64,000 nucleotides of DNA, from assembly GCF_038595065.1 (NCBI RefSeq), contig NZ_CP152003.1:1654001-1718000 (forward strand), in the 5' to 3' direction. How positions within the stretch are numbered: the stretch's first letter is position 1; each line of letters begins with the position of its first letter. Shown here piece after piece: positions 5,394-64,000 of the stretch. Made by a program: the position numbers and the translations under genes. The notes below the pieces were generated by a model that saw only the letters and a program-made list of their open reading frames with translations, had not been told where the DNA came from and ran no database searches. This DNA is from Sutcliffiella sp. FSL R7-0096. GTDB taxonomy: Bacteria; Bacillota; Bacilli; Bacillales; Bacillaceae_I.

Positions 5394-6190
5394 AGTTAGA
5401 AGAGAACAAGACAGCACCTTCACTCCTTCCTGCAAAAACGAAATTTAAACTAAGTGTCATTTTCGCATTGATAATTGGTTTTTACATTTTAAGTACGGTG
5501 AAGACTAATGCGACAATTGGCGATTTAATCAGTGGAATCCCAAATATGTTTAAGGTGATTGTGAAGTTCTTTCCACCAAACTTGAATGTATTTGTACACA
5601 TTTTAGAGCCTATGGCCACAACTGTGCAAATGGCCATCATTGCCACAACGGTTGCATCCCTTTTATGTATTCCGTTAAGCTTATTGGCAGCACAAAACGT
5701 CACTACCAATAAATTCGTATATACGGCTGTACGAACATTCCTAAATATTCTGCGCACAATTCCGGATCTAGTTCTAGCGGTTATTTTCGTTGGTCTATTT
5801 GGAATAGGGGTATTACCTGGTATTCTTGCACTTATTATTTTCTCTTTGGGTATTTTAGCGAAGTTAATCAGTGAAACCATTGAATCTGTAGATATGAATC
5901 CAATGGAAGCGATGAGTGCGTCTGGTGCCAATACGCTTCAGAAAATTTCATTTGCACTGATTCCACAGGTGCTGCCGCAATTCGTTTCCTTTGTTCTATA
6001 TGTATTCGAGATCAATATCCGTGCTTCGGTAGTTTTAGGACTGGTAGGGGCCGGTGGGATTGGGATTATCTTAAGTCAACAACTAAGATTCTATAACTAT
6101 CCGAATGCAATGTTAATCATCCTGGTTATCTTTGCAATGGTTGTTATCATTGAATATATTTCAACTAAGATCAGGGAGGCGATTGTATAA
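5390..6190 (+). CDS. phnE: phosphonate ABC transporter permease, first copy
   Basis: 266 aa with about six membrane helices. The cytoplasmic EAA-type loop contains EAMSASGANTLQKISFALIPQ, the coupling helix for PhnC. Translation starts with GTG at 5390, overlapping the phnC stop. The N terminus and the hydrophobic pattern match PhnE-type permeases. The second permease gene follows at once, so the channel is presumably a heterodimer. Confidence 0.9.
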   Translation: MKLEENKTAPSLLPAKTKFKLSVIFALIIGFYILSTVKTNATIGDLISGIPNMFKVIVKFFPPNLNVFVHILEPMATTVQMAIIATTVASLLCIPLSLLAAQNVTTNKFVYTAVRTFLNILRTIPDLVLAVIFVGLFGIGVLPGILALIIFSLGILAKLISETIESVDMNPMEAMSASGANTLQKISFALIPQVLPQFVSFVLYVFEINIRASVVLGLVGAGGIGIILSQQLRFYNYPNAMLIILVIFAMVVIIEYISTKIREAIV

Positions 6191-6987
6191 TGGAACTTGT
6201 CTTACCTCCCAAAAAGAAGACGTCCTTGATAAAAAAGGTGAGAAACTGGGGAATCTTTCTCTTCCTCGTATTAATGTATGTTTGGACCTTTGCCACCATT
6301 GATATCAACTGGACTCGCGCAGCGGAAAGGATGGTCAACAACTTTCATCGCGTCATTCCAAAGCTTTTCAGTCCAGAATGGTCCGCAATCGGCAAAGTTT
6401 GGTCCGCAATGGTCGAAACCTTGTATATCGCATTTGCAGGTTCCCTCATGGCTGCCATTCTTGCGATACCACTAGGTTTCCTTGCTGCACAGAATATGAC
6501 AAAAAGTAAGGTTCTGACCACGTTTGGGAAATGGATCTTGAGTGGGGTCAGGGCATTCCCGGATCTAATCTTGGCTATACTATTTGTAGTGGCAGTAGGA
6601 CCGAATCCGTTCGCCGGGGTCTTGGCTATCGCCATCGGATCCACAGGAATGCTTGGTAAACTGTACTCGGAAGTGTTGGAATCCATCGATATGAATATCG
6701 TGGAGGCCATGGAAGCAAGTGGCGCAAATAAAATCCAAATTCTATTCCAAGGAGTCATTCCACAGATCATACCAGAATTCCTTTCTTATGCTATCTATCG
6801 TTTCGAGATTGACGTTCGTGCGTCGACCATTCTTGGGATTGTCGGAGCCGGCGGTATCGGAACACTGATACAATTCGCACAGATGAATCGTAACTGGGAA
6901 GAGATGGGCTTGATTCTATTGGTGATTATCGTAGTAGTCACCATTATAGATTTCCTATCTTCAGCTATTCGTAGAAGAATCGTATAA
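6190..6987 (+). CDS. phnE: phosphonate ABC transporter permease, second copy
   Basis: 265 aa, related to the preceding permease over its whole length: both have PDL.LA..FV, an EAM.ASGAN loop followed by IPQ, and a VVGAGGIG-like segment near the C terminus. The start ATG shares its A with the previous TAA, the tightest coupling possible. Paired PhnE genes are common in Bacillus phn operons. A terminator follows at 7002. Confidence 0.9.
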   Translation: MELVLPPKKKTSLIKKVRNWGIFLFLVLMYVWTFATIDINWTRAAERMVNNFHRVIPKLFSPEWSAIGKVWSAMVETLYIAFAGSLMAAILAIPLGFLAAQNMTKSKVLTTFGKWILSGVRAFPDLILAILFVVAVGPNPFAGVLAIAIGSTGMLGKLYSEVLESIDMNIVEAMEASGANKIQILFQGVIPQIIPEFLSYAIYRFEIDVRASTILGIVGAGGIGTLIQFAQMNRNWEEMGLILLVIIVVVTIIDFLSSAIRRRIV

Positions 6988-7001
6988 GTATTTTTTCTAT
7001 A

Positions 7002-7030
7002 GGGGTGATCTTCATGATCAGCCCTTTCTT
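7002..7030 (+). terminator. rho-independent terminator of the phn operon
   Basis: GGGGTGATC (7002-7010) pairs imperfectly with GATCAGCCC (7015-7023), followed by TTTCTTT. Confidence 0.7.
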
Positions 7031-7232
7031 TAATAAAGGCTCTTTTCGTAAACTTTGTTGCTTTTTCGTATGCATACATTAACCAATATTTTCCTTACTG
7101 TCATGCTCTTTTCCCTGCCGTACTTAAGAAACTACTTGCACCTTAAAGAGTATGAAAGCAGTAAAAAGTCCAATTGCCGACTTTTTACAAGGGATAGCAA
7201 CAATCTTTGAGGAAAGAGCCTTAATAAAGTTT
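7027..7232. repeat. short MITE-like element with inverted ends
   Basis: CTTTAATAAAGGCTCTTT (from 7027) reappears inverted with one mismatch and one gap at 7211-7229. The core holds a perfect 10-bp hairpin, GTAAAAAGTC/GACTTTTTAC (7161-7188). No coding capacity is seen. GGCTCT-type ends resemble those of the larger repeat at 18138. Confidence 0.5.
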
Positions 7233-7255
7233 GATCGGGAATAGGAGGCTACCAA

Positions 7256-8824
7256 TTGAAGCTGAAATTAACAATACTCGAAACCAGTGATGTACATGGC
7301 TCTATCATGCCCTTAAACTATGGAAACAATGAAGCGGCGGCTCTTGGACTTGCAAAAGTATCAACAGTCATAAAAGATGAACGAAAAAAGAAAGAGCATG
7401 TTCTATTAATCGATAATGGGGATCTGATACAAGGAACACCCCTAACCTATCATTATGTTAAAAAACAAGCACACCTGGAAAATCCGATGATCACTGTGTT
7501 GAATCATCTGAACTATGATGCTGCTGTAGTCGGAAACCATGAATTTAATTACGGTCGTGAGGTATTAAAGAATGCTGTGGAAGCATCAGAGTTCCCATGG
7601 TTATCCGCCAATATTCTCGACCAACAAAGCGGAACACCTTTTTTAGGAAGGCCTTATTTGATTAAAACATTCGGTCCTATAAAGGTGGCGGTCTTAGGGG
7701 TAACGACACATTACATACCGAATTGGGAAAACCCTGACCATATCGAAAAGCTCTCTTTTATAGACGCTCTGGCCTCCACCGAAAGATGGGTATCCATCAT
7801 TAAGGAAAACGAAAACCCTGACTTATTAATTGTCAGCTATCATGGTGGTTTCGAGCGTGACCCGTCTACCGGGGAAGCAACAGAAAACCTTACCGGAGAA
7901 AATCAAGGCTATGATATCTGTAGCAAAATAAAGGGAATCGATATCCTTCTGACCGGACATCAGCATCGGTCCATCGCAACATCCATCCATGATGTACTTG
8001 TCGTACAGCCTGGGGTGAATGGACAAATGGTAGGGAAAGCGGAAGTTACTTTTGAGAACGTAGATAGTAGATGGCAGGTCGTTTCGAAGGAAGCAGACCT
8101 AATATCAGTGGTGGATTCAGAACCAGATCATGAGGTGGTTACACTGATTGAGGAATATGAAACGGCAACACAGGAATGGTTAGATTTGCCGATGGGGAAA
8201 ATCAACGGCGATATGCTAGTGAAAAATGCCAATGAAATACGTACCCAAGATAATGCCCTAATTGAATTTATCAATAACGTTCAAATGAAGGCTACTGGTG
8301 CTACCATATCTAATACAGCTCTTTTTCATAATAATTCTCCTGGATTTCCTGCAAATGTCACCATGAGGGATATCGTTTCAAACTATATTTACCCTAACAC
8401 GTTGAAGGTAATTCGAATTTCAGGTCAAGATATAAAGGATGCATTAGAGCGTTCCGCCTCTTATTTCATTATCGGCAGCAGTGGGGAATTGGAAGTTAAT
8501 CCTTCTTTCACCACGCCAAAGCCACAGCACTATAATTACGATATGTGGGAAGGAATCGAGTATATTCTGGATATAAGGAAGCCATTCGGTGAAAGAGTGG
8601 TGAAGCTAAATAGGAACGGTAATCCGCTAGATATGGAAGTGGAATTTGATGTGGTGATGAACAATTATCGTGCAGGTGGTGGTGGAAACTATCCCATGTA
8701 CAGAGGTAAGGAGGTCATACAAGACATCCCACTGGACATGTCCGAATTAATCGCGAACTATATAATGGAAAACAAAGTGATCGATGCAACTGTAAATGAC
8801 AATTGGAAGGTGATTTGGAAATAG
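7256..8824 (+). CDS. bifunctional metallophosphatase/5'-nucleotidase, CpdB-like (cytoplasmic)
   Basis: 522 aa. The metal-binding motifs of calcineurin-like phosphoesterases are in order: DVHG (~14-17), NGDLIQG, GNHEFNYG, and GHQHR (~238). A C-terminal 5'-nucleotidase domain follows (~320-520, with a NYRAGGGGNYPMY substrate loop). The opening TSDVHGSIMPLNYG is closest in style to 2',3'-cyclic-nucleotide 2'-phosphodiesterases of the YfkN/CpdB type. No signal peptide is present, so it acts inside the cell. TTG 7256 is the start, after a perfect AGGAGG. Its position after the phn operon suggests phosphorus salvage, an inference only. Confidence 0.85.
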   Translation: MKLKLTILETSDVHGSIMPLNYGNNEAAALGLAKVSTVIKDERKKKEHVLLIDNGDLIQGTPLTYHYVKKQAHLENPMITVLNHLNYDAAVVGNHEFNYGREVLKNAVEASEFPWLSANILDQQSGTPFLGRPYLIKTFGPIKVAVLGVTTHYIPNWENPDHIEKLSFIDALASTERWVSIIKENENPDLLIVSYHGGFERDPSTGEATENLTGENQGYDICSKIKGIDILLTGHQHRSIATSIHDVLVVQPGVNGQMVGKAEVTFENVDSRWQVVSKEADLISVVDSEPDHEVVTLIEEYETATQEWLDLPMGKINGDMLVKNANEIRTQDNALIEFINNVQMKATGATISNTALFHNNSPGFPANVTMRDIVSNYIYPNTLKVIRISGQDIKDALERSASYFIIGSSGELEVNPSFTTPKPQHYNYDMWEGIEYILDIRKPFGERVVKLNRNGNPLDMEVEFDVVMNNYRAGGGGNYPMYRGKEVIQDIPLDMSELIANYIMENKVIDATVNDNWKVIWK

Positions 8825-30029: not shown

Positions 30030-30527
30030 ATGTCAGGAAGAAAAGATTCAGAACTGGAAGGTGTAACCCTTCTAGGAAACCAGGGTACAAATTATTTATT
30101 CAACTACTCCCCGGATGTATTGGAAACCTTTGAAAACAAACATCCAAACAGAGATTATTTCGTTAAATTCAACTGTCCGGAATTTACAAGTCTTTGTCCG
30201 AAAACAAACCAACCAGATTTCGCGACCATTTACATCAGTTATATTCCAGGTGAATTGATGGTGGAGAGCAAATCATTGAAGCTATACCTGTTCAGCTTCC
30301 GTAACCACGGCGATTTCCATGAGGATTGCATGAACATCATCATGAACGATCTAATTAAATTAATGGATCCAAAATATATCGAGGTCTGGGGCAAATTCAC
30401 TCCACGTGGAGGCATCTCGATAGACCCTTACACCAACTATGGAAAACCAGGAACGAAATATGAAGAGATGGCCGCGTATCGACTAATGAATCATGACTTG
30501 TATCCAGAAAAAATTGACAATAGATAA
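30030..30527 (+). CDS. queF: NADPH-dependent 7-cyano-7-deazaguanine reductase
   Basis: 165 aa, the short (unimodular) form. [20 protein letters not shown] includes the catalytic Cys and Asp; [20 protein letters not shown] is the QueF NADPH motif. It reduces preQ0 to preQ1, the ligand of the operon's riboswitch. ATG 30030 is favoured over 30024 because AGAAGGAG ends nine bases before it. It is the last host gene before the prophage. Confidence 0.96.
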
Positions 30528-30546
30528 TAAGGATATTTATTAAAAA

Positions 30547-55219: not shown

Positions 55220-55477
55220 ATGGAAGCGTTAATGACAATTGATTTTACGGCTTATGTGGCAATTGCGGTAATACTTTATGCAATAAGAGAAGCCACTGGA
55301 CTATCAAATAAATACATTCCAATTGTAGCAGTTGCACTAGGAGTCGCTTTCTCAACATTTGAAGGTGGCTTTTTTAATTTTGACGTGTTAATTGCAGGTC
55401 TACAGTATGCCTTGTATGGAGTAGGTTCAGTTGCTGCAATTAAATATTCGTTAGAAAAGAAAGGGGAAGATATATAA
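55220..55477 (+). CDS. phage holin
   Basis: 85 aa with two or three hydrophobic helices: IDFTAYVAIAVILYAI (~5-20), YIPIVAVALGVAFSTF (~32-47) and LQYALYGVGSVAAIKY (~61-76), then a basic tail LEKKGEDI. AAGGAG precedes ATG 55220. It makes the pore that releases the endolysin. Its stop overlaps the endolysin ATG by one base. Confidence 0.85.
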   Translation: MEALMTIDFTAYVAIAVILYAIREATGLSNKYIPIVAVALGVAFSTFEGGFFNFDVLIAGLQYALYGVGSVAAIKYSLEKKGEDI

Positions 55478-56136
55478 TGTTTATTCGTCCAACAAAAGTT
55501 ACTCGTATTACTAGTGGATTTCGTGTTCCAGAACGGAGAGATCATCATGGTGTAGATTACGCTCTTGGCGGTGTTCATGAAATCTATTCAATTGCCGATG
55601 GAATTGTATCGAAGTCCTACGTATCCTCATCTTATGGTGAGGTTATTTTTATTTTCCATAATATTGATGGTCAAACATACGAATCAGTGTATGCTCATCT
55701 TAGAACAGGATCTCGTAAGCATCGAGTAGGGGCTAGAGTTAAACAAGGTGAAATTATTGGAATCATGGGTAACACAGGTATTTCAACTGGCCAACATCTT
55801 CACTTCGAGCTGCATATTGGCAGATGGAATATTAATAAAACCAATGCTGTAAATGGTGAACTGTACGTAAATGGTAGTATGAAACAATATATCAACCTAC
55901 ATAAGCATATGGAAGAGTGGAATCATTACCCTGTTGATAAAGAGCCGATTAAAAAGTTGTATGCTCATGATATCCCATTAAATCCAAAGAAATTTGGTGG
56001 ATTATCATATGAGGTACTACGTAAAGGTGCTGAACCTGATACTTATATAGTAAGAACTGGTCAATTTGGCGAACGAAAAATCTTTGTTCCTAAGGATAAA
56101 GATAGCAGCTTTACAAACGCTCCTTTGTATAAGTAA
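55477..56136 (+). CDS. M23 family endolysin
   Basis: 219 aa. The LytM-type zinc site is TSGFRVPERRDHHGVDYA (HxxxD) and GQHLHFELH (HxH), with VYAHLRTGSRKH between. C-terminal ~145-219 is a small unrecognised domain (LYAHDIPLNPKKFGGLSYEV), probably wall-binding. It is a peptidoglycan endopeptidase. No signal peptide, so the holin is needed. Confidence 0.9.
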   Translation: MFIRPTKVTRITSGFRVPERRDHHGVDYALGGVHEIYSIADGIVSKSYVSSSYGEVIFIFHNIDGQTYESVYAHLRTGSRKHRVGARVKQGEIIGIMGNTGISTGQHLHFELHIGRWNINKTNAVNGELYVNGSMKQYINLHKHMEEWNHYPVDKEPIKKLYAHDIPLNPKKFGGLSYEVLRKGAEPDTYIVRTGQFGERKIFVPKDKDSSFTNAPLYK

Positions 56137-56358
56137 AAGTGTTGAAAGGAGGACTCGGACTTAAAACTGTGAGTCCCCTAAACATAATAAATTCCTGCTT
56201 TTAATTAATGCGAACATGTGTATTATTTTCACACAAATTGTTAACAATATGTTATAATCGAATAATACATAGTTAAAAATTCAGTAATATTATTTTACTT
56301 AGTTAGTTACTTTATGCACGCAAATATAAATATTTCATCTAGAAAAGGAGTGATTCTG
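56137..56358. other. intergenic leader of the toxin-antitoxin pair
   Basis: About 220 nt of A+T-rich sequence. TTAACAATATGTTATAATCG contains a good TATAAT (56255-56260) with TTGTTA 17-18 nt upstream, a likely promoter that separates the pair from the late operon. Confidence 0.5.
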
Positions 56359-56829
56359 ATGGAAAGAGGACTTTATGATTCATTGAGGGTTGCTGAGTGG
56401 TTTGTTGCAAATACAGACAGAGAATCTGGTGCTTCCATTACGCATTTGAAATTACAAAAATTAATGTACTATGCTCAAGCATGGACAAAAGTATTATTAG
56501 GTAAAAAGCTTTTTGATTCTAGAATTGAAGCTTGGATGCATGGGCCTGTTGTAACAGAAGTCTATCACAGATACAAATCACATTCTTATCATGAGCTACC
56601 TATTCCTGACGAAGCTCCCGATTTAGATACAAACGTTGAATTTGTGCTTTCTGAAATCCTCCGTGTTTATGGAAAGTATGACGCAAAATATTTAGAGGAA
56701 CTTACTCATCAAGAAGACCCATGGATTGAAGCACGAAACGGGCTCCCTCTTGAAGCTAGATGTGAGAATGAAATTCCATTAGAAAAAATGGAAGAATTTT
56801 ATCGTAAAATGAATGAAGAAAATAGCTAA
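56359..56829 (+). CDS. Panacea (SocA/DUF4065) domain antitoxin
   Basis: 156 aa from ATG 56359 with AAAGGAGTGAT upstream. The Panacea core is ITHLKLQKLMYYAQAWTKVL, AWMHGPVVTEVYHRYKSH and a C-terminal LEELTHQEDPWIEARNG, matching the SocA-type antitoxin fold. Panacea proteins neutralise many unrelated toxins encoded next to them. It is followed after 5 nt by a 150-aa protein, the presumed toxin. The pair lies downstream of lysis genes, a common moron site. Confidence 0.82.
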   Translation: MERGLYDSLRVAEWFVANTDRESGASITHLKLQKLMYYAQAWTKVLLGKKLFDSRIEAWMHGPVVTEVYHRYKSHSYHELPIPDEAPDLDTNVEFVLSEILRVYGKYDAKYLEELTHQEDPWIEARNGLPLEARCENEIPLEKMEEFYRKMNEENS

Positions 56830-56834
56830 TAATT

Positions 56835-57287
56835 ATGAAGATTAATGCTAATACCAAAGTAAAAAAGACAAATGAGCAAAGCCACTTGTCATTAACTCAT
56901 ATAGAGTCTAAGTTGTTAGGACTCCAAAATGATAATCAGCAACAAGCATATGTTGCTCTAAAATATTTTGACAATCAACACCAATGTCTTTCTGAATGGA
57001 GCAAAGAAGAATTAAAGGCTTTTAGTGACTTCTGTAGAAAAGTAAATCAATTAACGTGGACTGATATTTACAGATCAGGTGGGAAAACAGGTAAAAATGG
57101 ACTTGGCTACACAGTTCATACCAATAGAGACAAACTACCAGCAGGAAACATATTCAAGCAAATTAGCGAAGACATTACATTTTTCGAATTAAGAGTTTCA
57201 CAGAAAGCTAGAGTTCATGGATTTAGAGCAAAGTCAACATTCTTCTTAGTGTGGCTGGATAAAGACCATGAAGTTTATAAAATGTGA
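56835..57287 (+). CDS. putative toxin partner of the Panacea antitoxin
   Basis: 150 aa. The C-terminal half has DITFFELRVSQKARVHGFRA followed by FFLVWLDKDHEVY, the strand pattern of small toxins that carry a VxGFRxxxxFxLVWLDxxHEVY tail. The N-terminal part (LSLTHIESKLLGLQN, YVALKYFDNQHQCLSEW) is helical. No catalytic residues are certain. The 5-nt gap to the antitoxin and shared terminator indicate one operon. A toxin role is inferred from context. Confidence 0.6.
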   Translation: MKINANTKVKKTNEQSHLSLTHIESKLLGLQNDNQQQAYVALKYFDNQHQCLSEWSKEELKAFSDFCRKVNQLTWTDIYRSGGKTGKNGLGYTVHTNRDKLPAGNIFKQISEDITFFELRVSQKARVHGFRAKSTFFLVWLDKDHEVYKM

Positions 57288-57323: not shown

Positions 57324-57349
57324 CATTATCTAAATTACTTGCGAATAGA

Positions 57350-57384
57350 AATAAGACTACCTGTTGAGTTGGGTAGTCTTATTT
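57350..57384 (-). terminator. rho-independent terminator of the minus-strand cassette
   Basis: AATAAGACTACC (57350-57361) pairs with GGTAGTCTTATT (57372-57383). It lies just after the last minus-strand gene and also backs up the plus-strand terminator. Confidence 0.75.
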
Positions 57385-57411: not shown

Positions 57412-57747
57412 TTATCGATTGTAAAGACTCTCTACACGTTCCTTACTCAATACTTCCTCACCGTTTATTAACTGCTGTATAGCACCTTCAAGCCATTTCT
57501 CACTCAACTCATCGCTACCAGCTTCTATGTGGAATTTCTCTATCATGGTGTGATCAAACTTGCATAAGATTCTATCGTGAGTTAAATCTAATTCTCTGTA
57601 GCTAACTAAAGCAGGAATGAATAAATATTTCTTCATTCCATCTTGGGACTCTAAGAGGTAGTGTACTTTTGTCTGGTCATTCGTTAAGCAACAATGTGTG
57701 ACTGCAGCTACAAACATAACTTCTTGAACGTCAAAACTAAAATTCAT
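57412..57747 (-). CDS. hypothetical protein, last gene of minus-strand cassette
   Basis: 111 aa from ATG 57747 after GGGAGG. Sequence features: FDVQEVMFVAAVTHCCLTND, VHYLLESQDGMKKYLFIPAL, and a C-terminal helix EEVLSKERVESLYN. Beta-rich core; no membrane segment. No family recognised. Confidence 0.6.
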   Translation of the reverse strand: MNFSFDVQEVMFVAAVTHCCLTNDQTKVHYLLESQDGMKKYLFIPALVSYRELDLTHDRILCKFDHTMIEKFHIEAGSDELSEKWLEGAIQQLINGEEVLSKERVESLYNR

Positions 57748-57798
57748 GAAAACACCTCCCACTAATATGGTAACAAATACCTAGTGAGAGGGGTAGAG

Positions 57799-57942
57799 TT
57801 ATTTGTATATAAGTTCCAAGTAATCTCTAATTTTTTGCTCGATCACTTTTGCATCCGTTTTTCTATCGACATATATTTCAATATCACAATACTTACCTTT
57901 AAACGTTTCATAGTACTCACAGTCTTCTAATGATACTGTCAT
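57799..57942 (-). CDS. 47-aa microprotein, copy 1 of a tandem pair
   Basis: Too short for common gene finders but with AAAGGAG before ATG 57942. The product opens MTVSLEDCEYYETFKGKYC, then DIEIYVDRKTDAKV and a helix ending RDYLELIYK. It shares ET-x-GKYC-x-x-EIYV and a YLE-L-Y ending with the next gene. Strand-strand-helix pattern; function unknown. Confidence 0.7.
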   Translation of the reverse strand: MTVSLEDCEYYETFKGKYCDIEIYVDRKTDAKVIEQKIRDYLELIYK

Positions 57943-57947
57943 AGAAT

Positions 57948-58103
57948 TTACTCCTTTTCATTAGTTAGATAAAGCTTCTCTAAATAGTTTCGTACTTTTT
58001 CCTTAAACTCTTTTTTGTCTACATTGTCATTTACGTATATTTCAACTTCACAGTATTTACCTTGATATGTTTCAATATATCTATATTGATCGGTTGACAC
58101 CAT
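57948..58103 (-). CDS. 51-aa microprotein, copy 2 of a tandem pair
   Basis: GGAGGTG precedes ATG 58103. The product is MVSTDQYRYIETYQGKYC, then EVEIYVNDNVDKKE and a helix with VRNYLEKLYLTNEKE. The stop codon overlaps the ribosome binding site of copy 1. Both copies keep the single Cys, the Glu and the aromatic spacing, although the rest has diverged, which suggests selection. Confidence 0.7.
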   Translation of the reverse strand: MVSTDQYRYIETYQGKYCEVEIYVNDNVDKKEFKEKVRNYLEKLYLTNEKE

Positions 58104-58211
58104 TTTCATCACCTCCGAAACAAATCATAAGTCAATGAGAAGACCTTTTATACAGGTAAGTAGAGGGTGAGTTTCAACCAATTGGAAAAAGTTTACTGTG
58201 TAGTCAACTAA

Positions 58212-58859
58212 TTAGATAAGCATCAAACCACCACTTATTAATACTAATGTAAAACCCAATTCAGCTAACCTTTTACTCATCATTCCAAGTAATGCCCATA
58301 CACCTAATCCAACTGTTAGCAATATTGGTAAAGTTAGAATGAAATCTGCAATCCAATTATGAATTCCTGAATGAATAAAATCTCCAACCCATTCTTTAAT
58401 TGAGGGAAAGGAGGGAAAGTGGGTATTCCCCACCGTCCCGTTATGGACAAATTTGTCCAAAAGTGATTGCTTACCTGACAAACTATCCAATTTAGAAACA
58501 AGTGGAGTTGGATCAATAAAGTTACCAGCCTGATCTTTAAGTCCAAAATGCAGATGAGCACCTGTTGAGTGACCTGTATTACCACTATATCCTAACGTTT
58601 CACCTTCCTTTAGTATCTGACCTACCTTCACTTTAATATCACTCATATGCCCATATATAGCTGTTGTGCCGTCTTCTAATCGAAGGATAACTCCTTTCCC
58701 AATATTCTCATTCCCATAATCTCCAACCCTTTCAACAATAGCTTCACCTATGCTTCTTAGCTCTGTATGCTCCGGCATTGCTAAATCTATTCCTGTATGT
58801 GGCTTTCCGTTTCTAATCTGCTCTAAAACACCATATTCTGAGGTTAGTTTAAATTTCAT
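58212..58859 (-). CDS. membrane-anchored M23 peptidase
   Basis: 215 aa. The LytM domain is at the N terminus: GKPHTGIDLA (~19-28), IYGHMSDIKV and GAHLHFGL (~99-106). Two hydrophobic helices close the protein (~165-190 FILTLPILLTVGLGVWALLG and ~197-215). There is no N-terminal signal, so its topology is unusual. It differs from the endolysin at 55477. A wall-opening role for transfer or entry machinery is plausible, as with the wall hydrolases of conjugation systems. Confidence 0.78.
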   Translation of the reverse strand: MKFKLTSEYGVLEQIRNGKPHTGIDLAMPEHTELRSIGEAIVERVGDYGNENIGKGVILRLEDGTTAIYGHMSDIKVKVGQILKEGETLGYSGNTGHSTGAHLHFGLKDQAGNFIDPTPLVSKLDSLSGKQSLLDKFVHNGTVGNTHFPSFPSIKEWVGDFIHSGIHNWIADFILTLPILLTVGLGVWALLGMMSKRLAELGFTLVLISGGLMLI

Positions 58860-58863
58860 AAGA

Positions 58864-58944
58864 CTACCTCCAATAGTAGGTTTTCATTTTCTGACGTTCG
58901 TTCCATATGCGAAATAGCAAGCTTACAATTATAATCGTCTTCAT
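58864..58944 (-). CDS. 26-aa membrane microprotein
   Basis: TAGGAGGATTAAA precedes ATG 58944, one of the best ribosome binding sites in the cassette. The product is MKTIIIVSLLFRIWNERQ followed by KMKTYYWR: a short hydrophobic start and basic tail. Its stop lies 5 nt before the M23 gene start, so it may also couple translation. Confidence 0.5.
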   Translation of the reverse strand: MKTIIIVSLLFRIWNERQKMKTYYWR

Positions 58945-58954
58945 TTTAATCCTC

Positions 58955-59410
58955 CTAGACTGCTGATTTCATTGCCTCAACCAGAATATTTAATATCATA
59001 GGGGTGAGGGTAACAAGAACATACCCAAGGCCAGCAGAAGACATCATGCTGAATCCTTTTTCTCTGTTTCCAATCATGATAAATAATGCTCCTCCAAGTA
59101 CAACAACCATTGCGATAGGGTAGGCTAGGGCTTGAACTAGAGTAATTAGGGGATCAAAAGCATGAAGCATATTGTCATACATTGCATTAGCGACTACGGA
59201 TGAATTTACAGATACAACTTCGGTTGAGTCTGCAAAAGTTGGAGTTGCTTGTGCTAGTGGTGCTAATGAGAGAGGGAGAAGAGACATACCGAACGACAAT
59301 CCAGCCGTTTTACCTTTTTGCATAGTGACTAATTCAGCTTCACAGATTTCATTTCTCTTCATGAAGTCTGGAATACTTCCGACAGTGTGAATTTTATTTT
59401 TATTGAACAT
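58955..59410 (-). CDS. VirB2/TrbC-like two-helix membrane protein
   Basis: 151 aa. A hydrophilic N terminus (~1-30) precedes a signal-type hydrophobic stretch ending ATPTFA|DS. The mature part has two helices (~90-112, ~122-145): LVQALAYPIAMVVVLGGALF, a short basic loop GNREKGF, then GLGYVLVTLTPMILNILVEA. This is the TrbC/VirB2 pilin layout of type IV secretion systems. GGAGGTTGACC precedes ATG 59410. Confidence 0.6.
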   Translation of the reverse strand: MFNKNKIHTVGSIPDFMKRNEICEAELVTMQKGKTAGLSFGMSLLPLSLAPLAQATPTFADSTEVVSVNSSVVANAMYDNMLHAFDPLITLVQALAYPIAMVVVLGGALFIMIGNREKGFSMMSSAGLGYVLVTLTPMILNILVEAMKSAV

Positions 59411-59429
59411 GTGGTCAACCTCCTGATAT

Positions 59430-60020
59430 TCAGATAAAATCTTGAATCGTAAATACCTTTACATCTAATCCCTCGCATAATTTTATAAGTTGTTTCCTTC
59501 TCAGCTCTGTTGTTGTAATCCAAATCAACTTTGGTGGTATGTCAAAAACGTTATAACTAAAAAGCTGCATATATCTTTCAATCTTTGACTTATTCTTGAT
59601 CATCTTCTGTAAATGATCTACTTCTATAAGATGATATTGCTTTTTACGAATAAAATAAGCATCCGCAATTAATTTAACCTTGTTAGGCACTTCAAGTTTC
59701 ATTTCATTCTTCCAAGATTGAGGGCATCCAGATTGAATGTACAATTCATTTCGCATAATGTAGTGGCGTGATTGAGTTGTTTTCTTGAGCACTCGTTTAC
59801 TATTTACACGTTCTCTACCTTCTTTGTTAAGGTAGTAAATATTTTCACCATCCTTAAAACTAGATACATAAGGTGAAAGCTGTTGTAATACTCGTTGAGC
59901 GTTTCTATCGCTTCCTAAATCATGTAGACGTTGTAGTTGTGAACGATTAAGATAGTTCAGTTTCTTCAATGAGCAAAGTATGGCTTCTTCTCTCTGTTGA
60001 CGTTCTATTTCCTTCTTCAT
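59430..60020 (-). CDS. replication-relaxation family protein
   Basis: 196 aa from ATG 60020. An N-terminal wHTH-like region LNYLNRSQLQRLHDLGSDRNAQ is followed by RRHYIMRNEL-like and VPNKVKLIADAYFIRKKQYHLIEVDH, where the final Asp/Glu-xx-x motif resembles a nuclease-like core. The family is found on Bacillus plasmids and phages and is linked to plasmid replication and DNA relaxation. It overlaps the FtsK-like gene by 74 nt in another frame. Confidence 0.75.
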   Translation of the reverse strand: MKKEIERQQREEAILCSLKKLNYLNRSQLQRLHDLGSDRNAQRVLQQLSPYVSSFKDGENIYYLNKEGRERVNSKRVLKKTTQSRHYIMRNELYIQSGCPQSWKNEMKLEVPNKVKLIADAYFIRKKQYHLIEVDHLQKMIKNKSKIERYMQLFSYNVFDIPPKLIWITTTELRRKQLIKLCEGLDVKVFTIQDFI

Positions 60021-61245
60021 TAACTTCCTTCCTTTCTCCACGAGCTTTAAAAGTGATATTTGGTTTGATTGTTTCGTCAATAAAGGAATTACTTATAAAA
60101 GGTGTCTGGACAATTTGTTTCTCAACTGTTCGGTAAATAGCTCTACCTCTTATTAATGGTAATGATTCAGCACCTTCTTCATCTAATACGGCTCTGCTTG
60201 CAGTACCAGTTTGTAATTTAAAGCACAATCGTGCATCACAATTTTGACGGACTTGAGAAGGTAAAACTTCATTCGTTGCGTACTGGGTACAGTAGACTAG
60301 CCTAAATCCAGCTCCTCGGCCTCGTCTTGATATGTCTTTTACTATTTCTACTGCATCCTTTTCATCGAACAAATCTGCAGCTTCATCTATAATCGTGAAA
60401 TGACGTTCTTTTATTCCTGCCTCTTTCACATCTTCATAGCCATGTTGGAGAAGATACTCAATGGTATTATTCATTCTGTCTTGAACATCCCTGAGTGCTT
60501 CTAATGCTTCCTTAGGATTCTTAGCAACTGTTTCAACTTGTTCAAGTATTTTGAAGCGATTAAATGACAACCCACCTTTCAAATCCACGAGGCAGAGTTT
60601 AACGTCTTTAGTCTTATTAGCTACAAGAGTGGTAATGATGTTCTTTAACATTACAGATTTCCCATATCCCGGAGAACCTGCAACAATTAGATTATAAATC
60701 TCATCGAAATCATTAAATATTAGCTCACCAGTCTTAGATAATCCAATTGGTACTTTCCATCCCTTACACAATTTCAGCAATTCTTCATCATACAAAAACT
60801 GATCAGTTAAAGGCTTATCATAAATTTTAAACACAAGCATTCCATCAAAACTAATTTCAACTTCTTTCCTAACCTTTCTCGTCTGAATTAATATTACTCT
60901 GATTTGATTAAGCACGTTTTTATTCCAATTGATTAGTTTAAAGTCTTTAAGGCTTATATCAGGCATTGATTTCTTAATGTTTAATCCATCTTGGAAGTTA
61001 TCTAATTTCTGGACAAACTGCTTGGAAGACAAGCCTTGTGGCATTTGGTATACAAACTCAGTATGAGATTGCTTTTTAGTCCGTCTGTAGATTCTAATTT
61101 CCTTACCTTCTGCATTTACAAGCCCACAGTTACGAGCTATCTTAACTATTTTCTGATGATCATCTGTTCCACCATTTGCTTTTTTATAATGCGCATAACC
61201 AGCAAGAGTTCCTGCAACTAATGATGAAGTTAATTCGAATATCAT
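59947..61245 (-). CDS. FtsK/SpoIIIE-HerA type DNA-translocating ATPase
   Basis: 432 aa from ATG 61245 (GGTGGTGAT upstream). One N-terminal membrane helix (~1-20) precedes a basic region. The ATPase has Walker A AGSPGYGKS (~189-197), VDLKGG, Walker B FTIIDEAADLF (Asp288, Glu289), SRRGRGAGFRLVYCTQYATNEVLPSQVRQN (the FtsK arginine-finger region, split at ~316-345), and RGRAIY. It lacks the gamma domain of chromosomal FtsK. Coupling proteins of Gram-positive conjugative elements have the same core. Confidence 0.85.
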   Translation of the reverse strand: MIFELTSSLVAGTLAGYAHYKKANGGTDDHQKIVKIARNCGLVNAEGKEIRIYRRTKKQSHTEFVYQMPQGLSSKQFVQKLDNFQDGLNIKKSMPDISLKDFKLINWNKNVLNQIRVILIQTRKVRKEVEISFDGMLVFKIYDKPLTDQFLYDEELLKLCKGWKVPIGLSKTGELIFNDFDEIYNLIVAGSPGYGKSVMLKNIITTLVANKTKDVKLCLVDLKGGLSFNRFKILEQVETVAKNPKEALEALRDVQDRMNNTIEYLLQHGYEDVKEAGIKERHFTIIDEAADLFDEKDAVEIVKDISRRGRGAGFRLVYCTQYATNEVLPSQVRQNCDARLCFKLQTGTASRAVLDEEGAESLPLIRGRAIYRTVEKQIVQTPFISNSFIDETIKPNITFKARGERKEVNEEGNRTSTERRSHTLLIEETELS

Positions 61246-61333: not shown

Positions 61334-61537
61334 TTCACCTGTCGTTATGAGTTTCACCTCCCGATATGCTTAAAGAATGATGCTAACGAATATTGGTTGC
61401 GAAGTGGATTTCGTATTTTCTTTGGTATGTTATAACGATATACAGACTGCTTGATCATGTTTCCACTTTTTTGCCTTAGGTATAAAAAATTGAAAATTGG
61501 ACGAGAATAGTACAAAAATTAATAAGAGGTGCTATTC
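61334..61537. other. divergent intergenic region
   Basis: Contains the GGGAGGTG site on the minus strand near 61357 and, on the plus strand, TTGAAAATTGG (61490s) before the XRE gene. No clear -10 element can be assigned; a divergent promoter pair is likely. Confidence 0.4.
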
Positions 61538-61762
61538 ATGTTCGGACTAGGGAAGGATAGAACTAAGTTTGGTAAATGGTTGGATCGTCAAGAGGATATA
61601 ACTCAAAGTGACATTGCGAAGGCAGCTAGGGTTTCAAACGAGACAGTTTCTAAATTATGTAGAGATAAGGAGTACGTACCGAAATTTGAAACAGTAATGA
61701 AGATAAAGAAAGGACTAATGAAATTAGATAAAGAAGTACCAGATAGATATTTTGACATGTAA
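61538..61762 (+). CDS. XRE family transcriptional regulator
   Basis: 74 aa from ATG 61538, AAGAGGTG six bases upstream. HTH: EDITQSDIAKAARVSNETVSKLCRDKEYVPKFETVMKIKKGL, given here as one region ~20-60. Proteins like this (FGKWLDRQ..TQ) accompany FtsK/replication-relaxation genes on plasmids and prophages. It faces away from the FtsK cassette and may regulate it. Confidence 0.75.
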   Translation: MFGLGKDRTKFGKWLDRQEDITQSDIAKAARVSNETVSKLCRDKEYVPKFETVMKIKKGLMKLDKEVPDRYFDM

Positions 61763-61798
61763 AAACCACCTTGACTTAGTTGTCATGGTGGTTTTCTT
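61762..61798. terminator. bidirectional terminator between the two XRE genes
   Basis: AAAACCACC (61762-61770) pairs with GGTGGTTTT (61787-61795), with an inner TTGAC/GTCA pair. Confidence 0.8.
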
Positions 61799-62018
61799 CT
61801 TTTAATATCTCAATTACATCTCCAATTTCACAATCTAAAACTGTACAAATGCTTTCTAGCGTTTCTGTACTAATTGATTTAACCCTTTTTTCTGGCTCAA
61901 GAGTGTTGTTATTAACCCATTGACTAATCGTATTAGGTCGAACTCCTGAAGCCTTAGAGAGGTGGTACATGGTCATTCCTTTTTCTTTAAGCAGTTCCTC
62001 TAATTTAAACCGGATCAT
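61776..62018 (-). CDS. CI-like XRE repressor
   Basis: 80 aa. HTH: MTMYHLSKASGVRPNTISQWVNN, then a C-terminal helix ESICTVLDCEIGDVIEIL, the usual short XRE repressor of Gram-positive phages. It is divergent from the 62147 gene across a repeat-rich operator region, so it is the likely lysogeny repressor. Confidence 0.75.
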   Translation of the reverse strand: MIRFKLEELLKEKGMTMYHLSKASGVRPNTISQWVNNNTLEPEKRVKSISTETLESICTVLDCEIGDVIEILKEENHHDN

Positions 62019-62865: not shown

Positions 62866-62920
62866 AAGTGTGACTGAAAGAATATCACTATGATATACTT
62901 TCTACAGTCACACTTTTTCC
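62866..62920 (+). terminator. long hairpin with TGTGAC arms before the integrase gene
   Basis: AAAGTGTGACTG (62866-62877) pairs perfectly with CAGTCACACTTT (62905-62916), followed by TTCC. It works as a terminator for the switch operon, and its arms carry the same TGTGAC motif as the left-end cluster, so it may also bind Int. Confidence 0.6.
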
Positions 62921-62943
62921 TTTGCTCTTTAAGGAGTATGAAA

Positions 62944-64000
62944 ATGACAACTATAAAAAAAGACCCTAAAACAGGGAAGTATGGATTTGTGTATTCTGGT
63001 GGCTTTCATCCTGTTACTAAAGAGAGAATACAAAAGAGAAGACAGGGAATAGCGTCCCTAAAGGAAGCAAAAGAGATTCTTAAACAGGTTATGCTTGAAG
63101 TTGAAGAAGAGAAGAAAATGTTTGATGTTTTCAAAGGTACTTTTAAAGATTACATTTTACATTGGTATGAAGCGAAGAAGGTAAGTTTAAGACCTAGCAC
63201 ATTGGTAAATTACAATGAGCAATTGAAATACAACATCTTACCTTACCTTGGAAAATTCAAGATGTCTGAACTAGATGAGACAATTCTCCAAAACTACATC
63301 AACCAACTTCATTCTGAAAGAAAACTTGCTCCTAAAACAATAAGAGCTGCTTATGGAATTGTCAGTGAAGTTTTGAAAAAGGCATCTAGGAAAAATGCTT
63401 TTGACATCTCAATTTTAACTGAACTAAGCATACCTAAAGAATCGAAAGTGATTAGAGCTTGGGAAAAAGAAGATATAAAGAAATTCTTGAATGCTCCTGA
63501 TTTAATATTAAATCTAACTAGACATTTCATTGGATTTGAAATACAAATACAGACAGGTATTAGGATGGGTGAAGTGTTGGGCCTTAGGTGGTCTGATATT
63601 GACCTAGAAAGACGTATGCTATTAATTAGACAAACGCTTGCTAAAATCAATGAAAATGGGGAATATGGCATTGTAGATGCTGTTAAAACCAATTCCTCAT
63701 ACAGAACGATTGATCTACCAAAGAAGCTATGTCAAAGAATTGAGGAACATCAAAGAAGAGTTAACAAGGAAAAACAAATTCTCGGTGAGAAATACATTGA
63801 TAATGATTTAGTGGTTTGTACAAAGAATGGTAATTGGGTACATCCTAATAATTTCAGAAGAGCTTTTAATGTTACACGAGATTATTTAAATCTACCTAAA
63901 ATTAGGGCATATGACCTTAGGCATACTCATTCTACATTCTTAATCGGTGTATTAATGATTAATCCTAAGATAGTTTCAGAAAGATTAGGACATGCTCATA
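62944..64000 (+). CDS. int: tyrosine recombinase/phage integrase (3' end outside window)
   Basis: 352 residues visible. N-terminal AP2-like arm-binding domain (PKTGKYGFVYSGGFHPVTKERIQ), a SAM-like core-binding domain (~60-150, FKDYILHWYEAKKVSLRPST), and the catalytic domain with Arg I in QTGIRMGEVLGLRW, the HxxR box in AYDLRHTHSTFL, and SERLGHAH at the window edge. The catalytic Tyr lies beyond it. ATG 62944 is seven bases after AAGGAG. It integrates and excises the prophage. Confidence 0.95.
   Translation, partial: MTTIKKDPKTGKYGFVYSGGFHPVTKERIQKRRQGIASLKEAKEILKQVMLEVEEEKKMFDVFKGTFKDYILHWYEAKKVSLRPSTLVNYNEQLKYNILPYLGKFKMSELDETILQNYINQLHSERKLAPKTIRAAYGIVSEVLKKASRKNAFDISILTELSIPKESKVIRAWEKEDIKKFLNAPDLILNLTRHFIGFEIQIQTGIRMGEVLGLRWSDIDLERRMLLIRQTLAKINENGEYGIVDAVKTNSSYRTIDLPKKLCQRIEEHQRRVNKEKQILGEKYIDNDLVVCTKNGNWVHPNNFRRAFNVTRDYLNLPKIRAYDLRHTHSTFLIGVLMINPKIVSERLGHAH

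Follow-up and report, generated by a model that had tools for sequence, protein, structure and literature searches.

What use would a phage have for a group of genes resembling parts of a conjugation apparatus? The question is raised by a 64,000-nucleotide stretch of the Sutcliffiella sp. FSL R7-0096 genome (contig NZ_CP152003.1, positions 1,654,001 to 1,718,000; hereafter the window), where a prophage carries, on the minus strand at 57799..61245, a cassette encoding an FtsK/HerA-superfamily ATPase, a replication-relaxation protein, a small two-helix protein similar to the VirB2/TrbC pilins and an M23 peptidase. An earlier note, made from the letters alone, had read these as the minimum parts of a DNA-transfer apparatus and held a transfer or plasmid-like maintenance role to be worth testing. 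The four genes are real, in that all are present as open reading frames (ORFs) and three of them match Pfam families (Table 1), and the transfer reading as a whole is partly supported by the results given below. From sequence comparisons, the cassette appears to be a module that recurs among phages and has its counterpart in the well-studied SPO1. We consider the chances about even (roughly 0.5) that the module translocates phage DNA, working like a stripped-down type IV or TcpA-type transfer machine without being a type IV secretion system (T4SS). Published reports, identified by their PMC numbers, are drawn on in excerpt throughout.

Gene content, family matches and linkage are direct observations on the genomes compared. 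Neighbourhoods were taken from a scan with the relaxation profile (160 relatives, 80 kept), a scan with the ATPase profile (189 relatives, 80 kept), named genomes (47 loci) and an order-wide sample of 299 genomes (30 loci); the two profile scans share contigs, and the relaxation protein was the query in part of the scans, the pilin-like protein in none. The 241 loci with a phage-type FtsK formed 149 groups at 95% identity, of which 17 were dropped for too little flank, leaving 132 with at least 1.3 kb downstream, a count from which loci of the window's own genome were left out. The relaxation gene lies just downstream of FtsK in 127 of these 132 groups (128 if L174 is counted, where the frame starts further upstream) and the pilin-like gene lies downstream in 119. 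Among 42 loci with less than 70% FtsK identity and ample flanks, whose neighbour families were named by eye, 40 have the relaxation gene, 40 the pilin-like gene and 33 a helix-turn-helix (HTH) gene on the opposite strand, and rarer companions are a lysis amidase (11), an M23 protein with a hydrophobic hairpin (9), a ribbon-helix-helix (RHH)-like gene (7) and an integrase (7). The linkage of the trio thus persists while the other neighbours change. The idea that the cassette is unique to this prophage was rejected, since the trio recurs in more than 100 locus groups elsewhere; of the joint occurrence of all four families, which the earlier note had asked about, the tight linkage of three stands and the fourth, M23, is found in a minority. 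The short-FtsK loci (L244-L254), removed by the flank filter, are without a downstream pilin-like gene, and some have a small upstream membrane ORF.

The ATPase of the window carries a Walker A motif (GSPGYGKS), and an IIDEA stretch is visible by eye even though a Walker B pattern search was empty. The membrane segment expected at its N-terminus is there, as a hydrophobic region judged by eye to form one helix. Chromosome translocases of the FtsK/SpoIIIE type combine a multi-helix N-terminus with a C-terminal gamma domain; the window protein differs from them on each count, having 432 aa, a single N-terminal helix and no Pfam match for a gamma domain. In the Protein Data Bank (PDB), the ATPase profile matched an entry named 'DNA translocase coupling protein' (6o1z, E 5e-37, 130.7 bits) better than FtsK (2ius, 1.5e-29, 106.1 bits), and the coupling-protein entries 6o1w-z all outscored FtsK (~130 against 106 bits). 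These entries we take to be TcpA of pCW3, and on that identification the motor domain is closer to TcpA than to FtsK, a likeness to coupling ATPases stronger than had been claimed. The protein also passes PF12846 AAA_10, barely (27.8 against a cut-off of 27.5 bits).

The relaxation protein matches PF13814 over the Pfam cut-off; SPO1 gp27.3 (E 2.9e-12) and a protein of phage vB_BcoS-136 (E 1.8e-9) match PF13814 too, and the family is listed as a MOBC relaxase domain (PMC5357655, PMC12857230), in keeping with the DNA-relaxing enzyme first proposed. MOBC has in turn been tied to PD-(D/E)XK nucleases (PMC12857230). When the window protein was aligned with 77 of 95 nonredundant relatives (18 omitted), H86, E106, D120, E133, D135, K146 and Y150 were invariant in 78 of 78 sequences; they are also present in SPO1 gp27.3 and vB_BcoS-136, and the acidic and lysine residues would fit a nuclease-like site. 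A sequence search of the PDB with the relaxation profile gave no credible relative. In genome sets, this profile was matched in 14 of 398 genomes of a class sample.

The resemblance of the third protein to TrbC/VirB2 holds for its family and less well for the window member itself, which remains under the Pfam cut-offs. In a set of 85 sequences, consisting of the window protein and 84 of 101 nonredundant relatives (own-profile E<1e-10; 17 omitted), 52 match T4SS_pilin and 39 match TrbC at E<=0.01, as against none of 74 control ORFs from the retrieved loci, all small and with 2-3 predicted helices, which for the most part match holin families. The family layout, judged from hydropathy only, is an N-terminal F..DFM-type motif followed by a signal-like segment, two helices and a charged loop. 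A narrow pattern for the motif finds 41 of the 85 members, and a wider one, made post hoc after the family had been viewed, finds 75 of 85; its background is 112 hits in 3892 other ORFs and 32 in 1700 shuffles. When 21 loci, mainly of the short-FtsK kind, were examined with the wider pattern, it pointed to a convincing membrane ORF upstream at four of them (L246, L251, L253, L260), and L254 has a similar one by eye. A PDB sequence search with the pilin-like profile gave no credible relative. Relatives of the pilin-like protein (tblastn, E 1e-5) occur in 49 of 50,697 phage records and 2 of 72,556 plasmid records, and among genomes the profile is matched in 3 of 31 relatives and in 1 of 299 of a phylum sample, which is the window's own. 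Tandem duplicates of the gene exist in Bacillus phage Silence (L007:5001-5848) and at L019, L029 and L075, with the motif seen by eye in the copies. A 60-aa protein of the Tsamsa-like phage vB_BcoS-136 (L281, 478-660) combines SIGDFMNGNY with a hydrophobic segment, and a motif of this kind may mark further small members of the module.

The M23 protein has HxxxD at 21 and HxH at 102. It is without an N-terminal signal and has, by eye, only a C-terminal hydrophobic hairpin, which the earlier note described as membrane helices. The loop between the helices is positive, by eye, in both the pilin-like and the M23 proteins, which under the positive-inside rule would put the M23 domain outside. Near the trio we counted 13 nonredundant M23 relatives, 12 of them full length with a similar hydrophobic C-terminus (by eye), and the peptidase is a partner in 10 of 95 FtsK groups (95% identity, at least 2.6 kb downstream). 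It recurs in further lineages, as found in phages Goe20, P59 and vB_BcoS-136, the last of which has an M23 gene with a hydrophobic C-terminus together with a large ATPase and a PF13814 gene.

Other parts of the cassette are exchangeable while the pilin-like gene stays. At four loci (L142, L158, L153 and L240) FtsK has an RHH-like gene (by eye) ahead of it and the pilin-like gene is kept, but no relaxation gene was found. In phages D6E, TP-84, 055SW001 and vB_BpsM-61 the pilin-like gene precedes a different ATPase of 718-754 residues, and GBK2 combines an ATPase of this large type with a two-helix gene, a pilin-like gene that bears the motif and, by eye, an RHH-like gene. A relative of the large ATPase is SPO1 gp27.4 (23% identity, E 3e-34), which belongs to a counter-transcribed block made up of gp29.1, gp27.9, gp27.8, three small membrane ORFs, gp27.4 and gp27.3. 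Besides the PF13814 match of gp27.3, gp27.9 is actin-like (2e-27) and gp29.1 matches T4SS_pilin weakly (0.022); gp27.8 had no match in the family scan. A pilin profile built from FtsK-type loci only finds SPO1 gp29.1 (2.6e-10) and TP84_47 of TP-84 (2e-24) among 955 sequences, the best of 440 shuffles reaching 0.47. In Goe20, genes for an actin-like protein, M23 and FtsK are accompanied by one for a polytopic membrane protein. P59 is like it by eye: near its FtsK gene lie M23, a polytopic membrane gene and a protein that the pilin profile matches weakly (18.6 bits, E 2e-6 for a set of 22).

Several observations weigh against a translocation machine. VirB4 is the signature subunit of all T4SSs (PMC12857230), and VirB4, VirB3 and VirB8 were not seen in the genes scanned, which for VirB4 comprise 10 window proteins in Pfam, 20 in PHROGs and 6 in NCBIfam, or in the annotations read for the phage regions. 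By membership, therefore, the cassette is not a T4SS, as the earlier note had already allowed. No VirB6-type polytopic platform was seen in the window cassette, and no T4SS family was recognised among the recurrent neighbours in the 42 loci, named by eye with no family-directed search. In NCBIfam the ATPase scores best, though under the model's cut-off, against EccCa, the ATPase of type VII secretion (1.9e-18), with FtsK (8e-12) and plasmid TraB (5e-10) at lower ranks. The 151-aa protein of the window reaches E 5.6e-4 for PF18895 T4SS_pilin and E 0.078 for TrbC; the large ATPases weakly match DptH, TdpA and HerA and no VirD4 at E 0.01; and the polytopic proteins of Goe20 and P59 (5-6 predicted helices) have no Pfam match. 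M23 domains occur in 920 of 50,697 phage records, so some of the M23 neighbours may be there by chance. Finally, phage 268TH002 is without a 2.5-kb block found in the 96% identical 268TH007, which holds FtsK, relaxation, HTH and one hypothetical gene and is the main difference of the pair (PMC9476937); the FtsK and relaxation genes are therefore dispensable for plating.

The step that carries most weight is that a one-helix motor without a gamma domain, almost always next to exported two-helix and DNA-binding-type proteins, would be part of a translocation complex, with its channel and its DNA reader encoded by separate genes; a transfer function is predicted. How the module might assemble, in which direction it might work and on what cargo, we infer as follows. 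A ring of membrane-anchored ATPase would be the motor. The relaxation protein would recognise, and perhaps nick, phage DNA and hand it to the motor, substituting for the missing DNA-reading gamma domain, and the RHH-like gene might take its place in some of the phages where the relaxation gene is absent. The exported VirB2-like subunits, with their loop inside, would line or extend a channel that a one-helix motor cannot form, and their N-terminal motif, common to phages with either ATPase type, could be the docking site for the motor. M23, where present, would open the wall. In this way phage DNA would cross a membrane, whether in infection or in the lysogen, and its likeliest destination would be a neighbouring compartment such as a sister cell, a septum or a forespore.

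Direction is touched on by two hints. TP84_47 was among 14 proteins reported from purified TP-84 particles and is not in the infected-cell list as excerpted (PMC5889276); its presence in particles would fit a filament or conduit, or membrane carried over in the preparation. Phages of spore-forming genera account for most occurrences of the gp27.4-type ATPase, its 68 records being divided among Bacillus (56), Geobacillus (5), Deep-sea (2), Lysinibacillus (2) and Alicyclobacillus, Brevibacillus and Microcystis (1 each); apart from the Microcystis phage, the hosts are presumably all spore-formers. SPO1-type capsids, counted by first word in 634 records, are distributed over Staphylococcus (343), Bacillus (95), Enterococcus (69), Listeria (55), Lactobacillus (27) and others with fewer. 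Taken as proof of forespore delivery this restriction was rejected; it is suggestive only, being confounded with host phylogeny, and counter to it the relaxation gene occurs in two 'Staphylococcus phage' records and the pilin-like gene in one. Phage Bc431v3 has been linked to sporulation genes (PMC3601020).

In the literature, such genes have been taken for plasmid replication and segregation proteins (TrbC/VirB2, Replic_Relax, FtsK and RHH), perhaps from a lost plasmid prophage, by the authors on phages Novomoskovsk and Bolokhovo (PMC9658697), and the ParM, RHH, T4SS and relaxation proteins of the Tyroviruses are thought to come from a conjugative plasmid (PMC9703825). A remnant or working part of such a system would account for the actin-like (ParM-type) genes of SPO1 and Goe20, and by eye of P59, and for the FtsK and relaxation genes on eight Priestia filamentosa plasmid records, in one of which, when read, ParM was ~4 kb away. 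The present prophage, however, is inserted in the chromosome, carries an integrase and is bounded by a 225-bp repeat, and segregation needs neither a pilin-like subunit nor a wall peptidase. The genes are moreover kept in SPO1-type phages, Andromedavirus and TP-84, all of which we take to be virulent, and this argues against plain plasmid maintenance, which we have demoted; we regard the segregation system as unlikely and the maintenance role suggested in the earlier note as less likely than it first seemed.

The genes might instead exclude superinfecting phages, a membrane ATPase, a nuclease-like protein and a small membrane protein acting against incoming DNA. The cassette is near the integrase, a usual place for cargo, the ATPase domain matches SspH (3.5e-25) and mad8 (2.6e-20) in PADLOC, and the best PDB match of the large-ATPase (type-B) profile is DptH. 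The relaxation protein gave one marginal PADLOC match (PtuA, 0.0087) and the pilin-like and M23 proteins none; a known defence system was accordingly rejected, the ATPase alone of the four having a good match, and a wall peptidase and an exported pilin-like protein suit exclusion poorly. We think this role improbable. An aid to genome entry, in which a particle-borne or early pilin-like conduit is followed by an ATPase that pulls in the remaining genome, is favoured by the report of TP84_47, a family member by profile, from particles, and the authors on phage Pony proposed a role in DNA injection (PMC3853050). Such a role is improbable: a motor synthesised only once infection is under way cannot initiate entry, the SPO1 block is at about 92-98 kb of 132 kb, GenBank has a virion note on SPO1 gp29.2 but none on its neighbour gp29.1, 268TH002 plates without the FtsK block, and the TP-84 preparation may include membrane or filaments.

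If the module is indeed a translocation machine, genes filed as FtsK, replication-relaxation, TrbC-like and hypothetical in many phages would be parts of one machine, single-gene deletions in SPO1 could reveal its cargo, and a connection would be made between conjugation machinery and the tailed phages that infect Gram-positive hosts, a setting in which VirB2-type subunits are described as almost absent. The module also offers a test of how phage genomes get into spores. An extension that we hold quite unlikely is that tailed phages of endospore-formers share a DNA-export machine without VirB4, composed of a TcpA/FtsK- or HerA-type motor, VirB2-like subunits with their docking motif, a MOBC- or RHH-type adaptor and sometimes M23, which would deliver naked genomes to a neighbour cell or forespore; it would be a second route of spreading, without virions, with SPO1 as its laboratory model.

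The prophage is delimited by the 225-bp repeat, situated at the 3' end of a gene adjoining queC- and queE-like genes and presumably queF; the core is unusually long, as when a phage carries a copy of the gene's end. Terminase, capsid and integrase were matched by family, and the genes outside the repeat are of host type by our own naming. On one side of the cassette are lysis-type genes (an M23 protein at 55477-56136 and a holin-like gene by eye), on the other the integrase. Within it, the ATPase gene runs 74 bases into the relaxation gene, a gap of 19 bases lies between the relaxation and pilin-like genes, and the M23 gene is followed by two tandem short ORFs with similar segments (YQGKYCEVEIYV and FKGKYCDIEIYV); the 116-aa ORF beyond them is a possible end of the cassette transcript. 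The HTH gene divergent from the ATPase gene is a candidate regulator; in the 42 nonredundant loci, 31 of 38 members of the opposite-strand HTH family, to which the window gene may belong, are upstream of FtsK. The second HTH gene is probably on a separate transcript, because a stem-loop and T run follow it (by eye; absent from the computed stem-loop list). At 56314-57287 (plus strand), a Panacea/SocA-type antitoxin gene (PF13274, 1e-17) and a gene with a PADLOC NsnC match (4e-10) are probably a toxin-antitoxin or defence pair closing the late region. Elsewhere in this genome, at C1:212144-214375 (L175, G000:C1:206000-225000, 6145-8379), FtsK, relaxation and pilin-like genes form another trio, which has no M23 partner. 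On plasmid pBEH6 (L257), the one Priestia plasmid record read, a 58-aa hydrophobic ORF lies just upstream of the FtsK and relaxation pair.

Table 1. Features of the cassette and its prophage, in window numbering
Feature	Position	Strand	Basis or remark
Left repeat copy, 225 bp exact	30306..30530		Prophage limit
Stem-loop, 15 pairs, terminator-like	57349..57384		Between late genes and cassette
116-aa ORF	57412..57762	-	No Pfam match; one marginal PHROG of unknown function, E 0.024
Short ORF, 47 aa	57799..57942	-	Like the 54-aa ORF by eye; lower limit of the cassette as studied
Short ORF, 54 aa	57948..58112	-	Like the 47-aa ORF by eye; no Pfam match
M23 peptidase, C-terminal hydrophobic hairpin, 215 aa	58212..58859	-	PF01551 5e-24
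VirB2/TrbC-like two-helix protein, 151 aa	58955..59410	-	Relatives match T4SS_pilin, TrbC
Replication-relaxation (MOBC-relaxase domain) protein, 196 aa	59430..60020 (ATG 60020, stop 59430)	-	PF13814 1.3e-10
FtsK/HerA-superfamily ATPase, 432 aa	59947..61245 (ATG 61245, stop 59947)	-	PF01580 4e-17
XRE-type HTH gene, divergent from ATPase gene	61529..61762	+	PF01381 1e-5
Second HTH gene, upstream	61776..62018	-	PF13443 3e-15
Tyrosine integrase, right end of prophage	62890..63999, runs off window	+	phrog_1 8e-57
Right repeat copy, 225 bp exact	64152-64376 (outside window, G000:C1)		Prophage limit

In the open-access literature we found no account that treats these genes as a single translocation module, most subscription journals being outside this scope, and the nearest known systems each share a part of it. 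With the TcpA-type coupling proteins of pCW3 and the Tn916/ICEBs1 family, the cassette ATPase shares an FtsK/SpoIIIE motor domain, as its best match among solved structures, and a gene position upstream of a relaxase-type gene, as in integrative mobilizable elements (IMEs; PMC5357655); it differs in its one N-terminal helix (by eye), in having no T4SS genes noticed nearby and in a partner with a MOBC-type rather than a MOBT or MOBM domain. The relaxation protein is like the MOBC relaxases (CloDF13 MobC, pAD1 TraX) in its PF13814 match and invariant acidic and lysine residues, a likeness at the level of sequence. In the streptococcal IMEs covered by the excerpt, the partner of MOBC is VirD4 in 2 elements and TcpA in none (PMC5357655), whereas the partner here is of the FtsK type. 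One recorded plasmid carries Replic_Relax together with genes of the VirD4-domain and VirB4-like kinds (PMC3756968).

The pilin-like family has the long N-terminal signal-like region, two helices, charged loop and Pfam matches of VirB2/TrbC pilins, and is set apart by the sub-threshold score of its window member, the conserved N-terminal F..FM motif and the fact that no VirB4 partner was seen; VirB2 is described, in the part drawn on, as absent from Gram-positive T4SSs with one exception (PMC12857230). Thermus transjugation (TdtA and a NurA-like nuclease) likewise joins an FtsK-HerA motor to a nuclease-type protein, but its four-gene operon, as excerpted, is described without a pilin-like gene and is not phage-borne (PMC5365140). 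The same FtsK and replication-relaxation families, annotated singly, occur in the Andromedavirus, Tyrovirus and Gamma-type phages (the last known to us from an annotation note only). The published readings are plasmid segregation, DNA injection or, for Grass and Blastoid, a role called unknown (PMC3853049, PMC3853047), whereas the linkage described here suggests that the genes might be read together, as one module.

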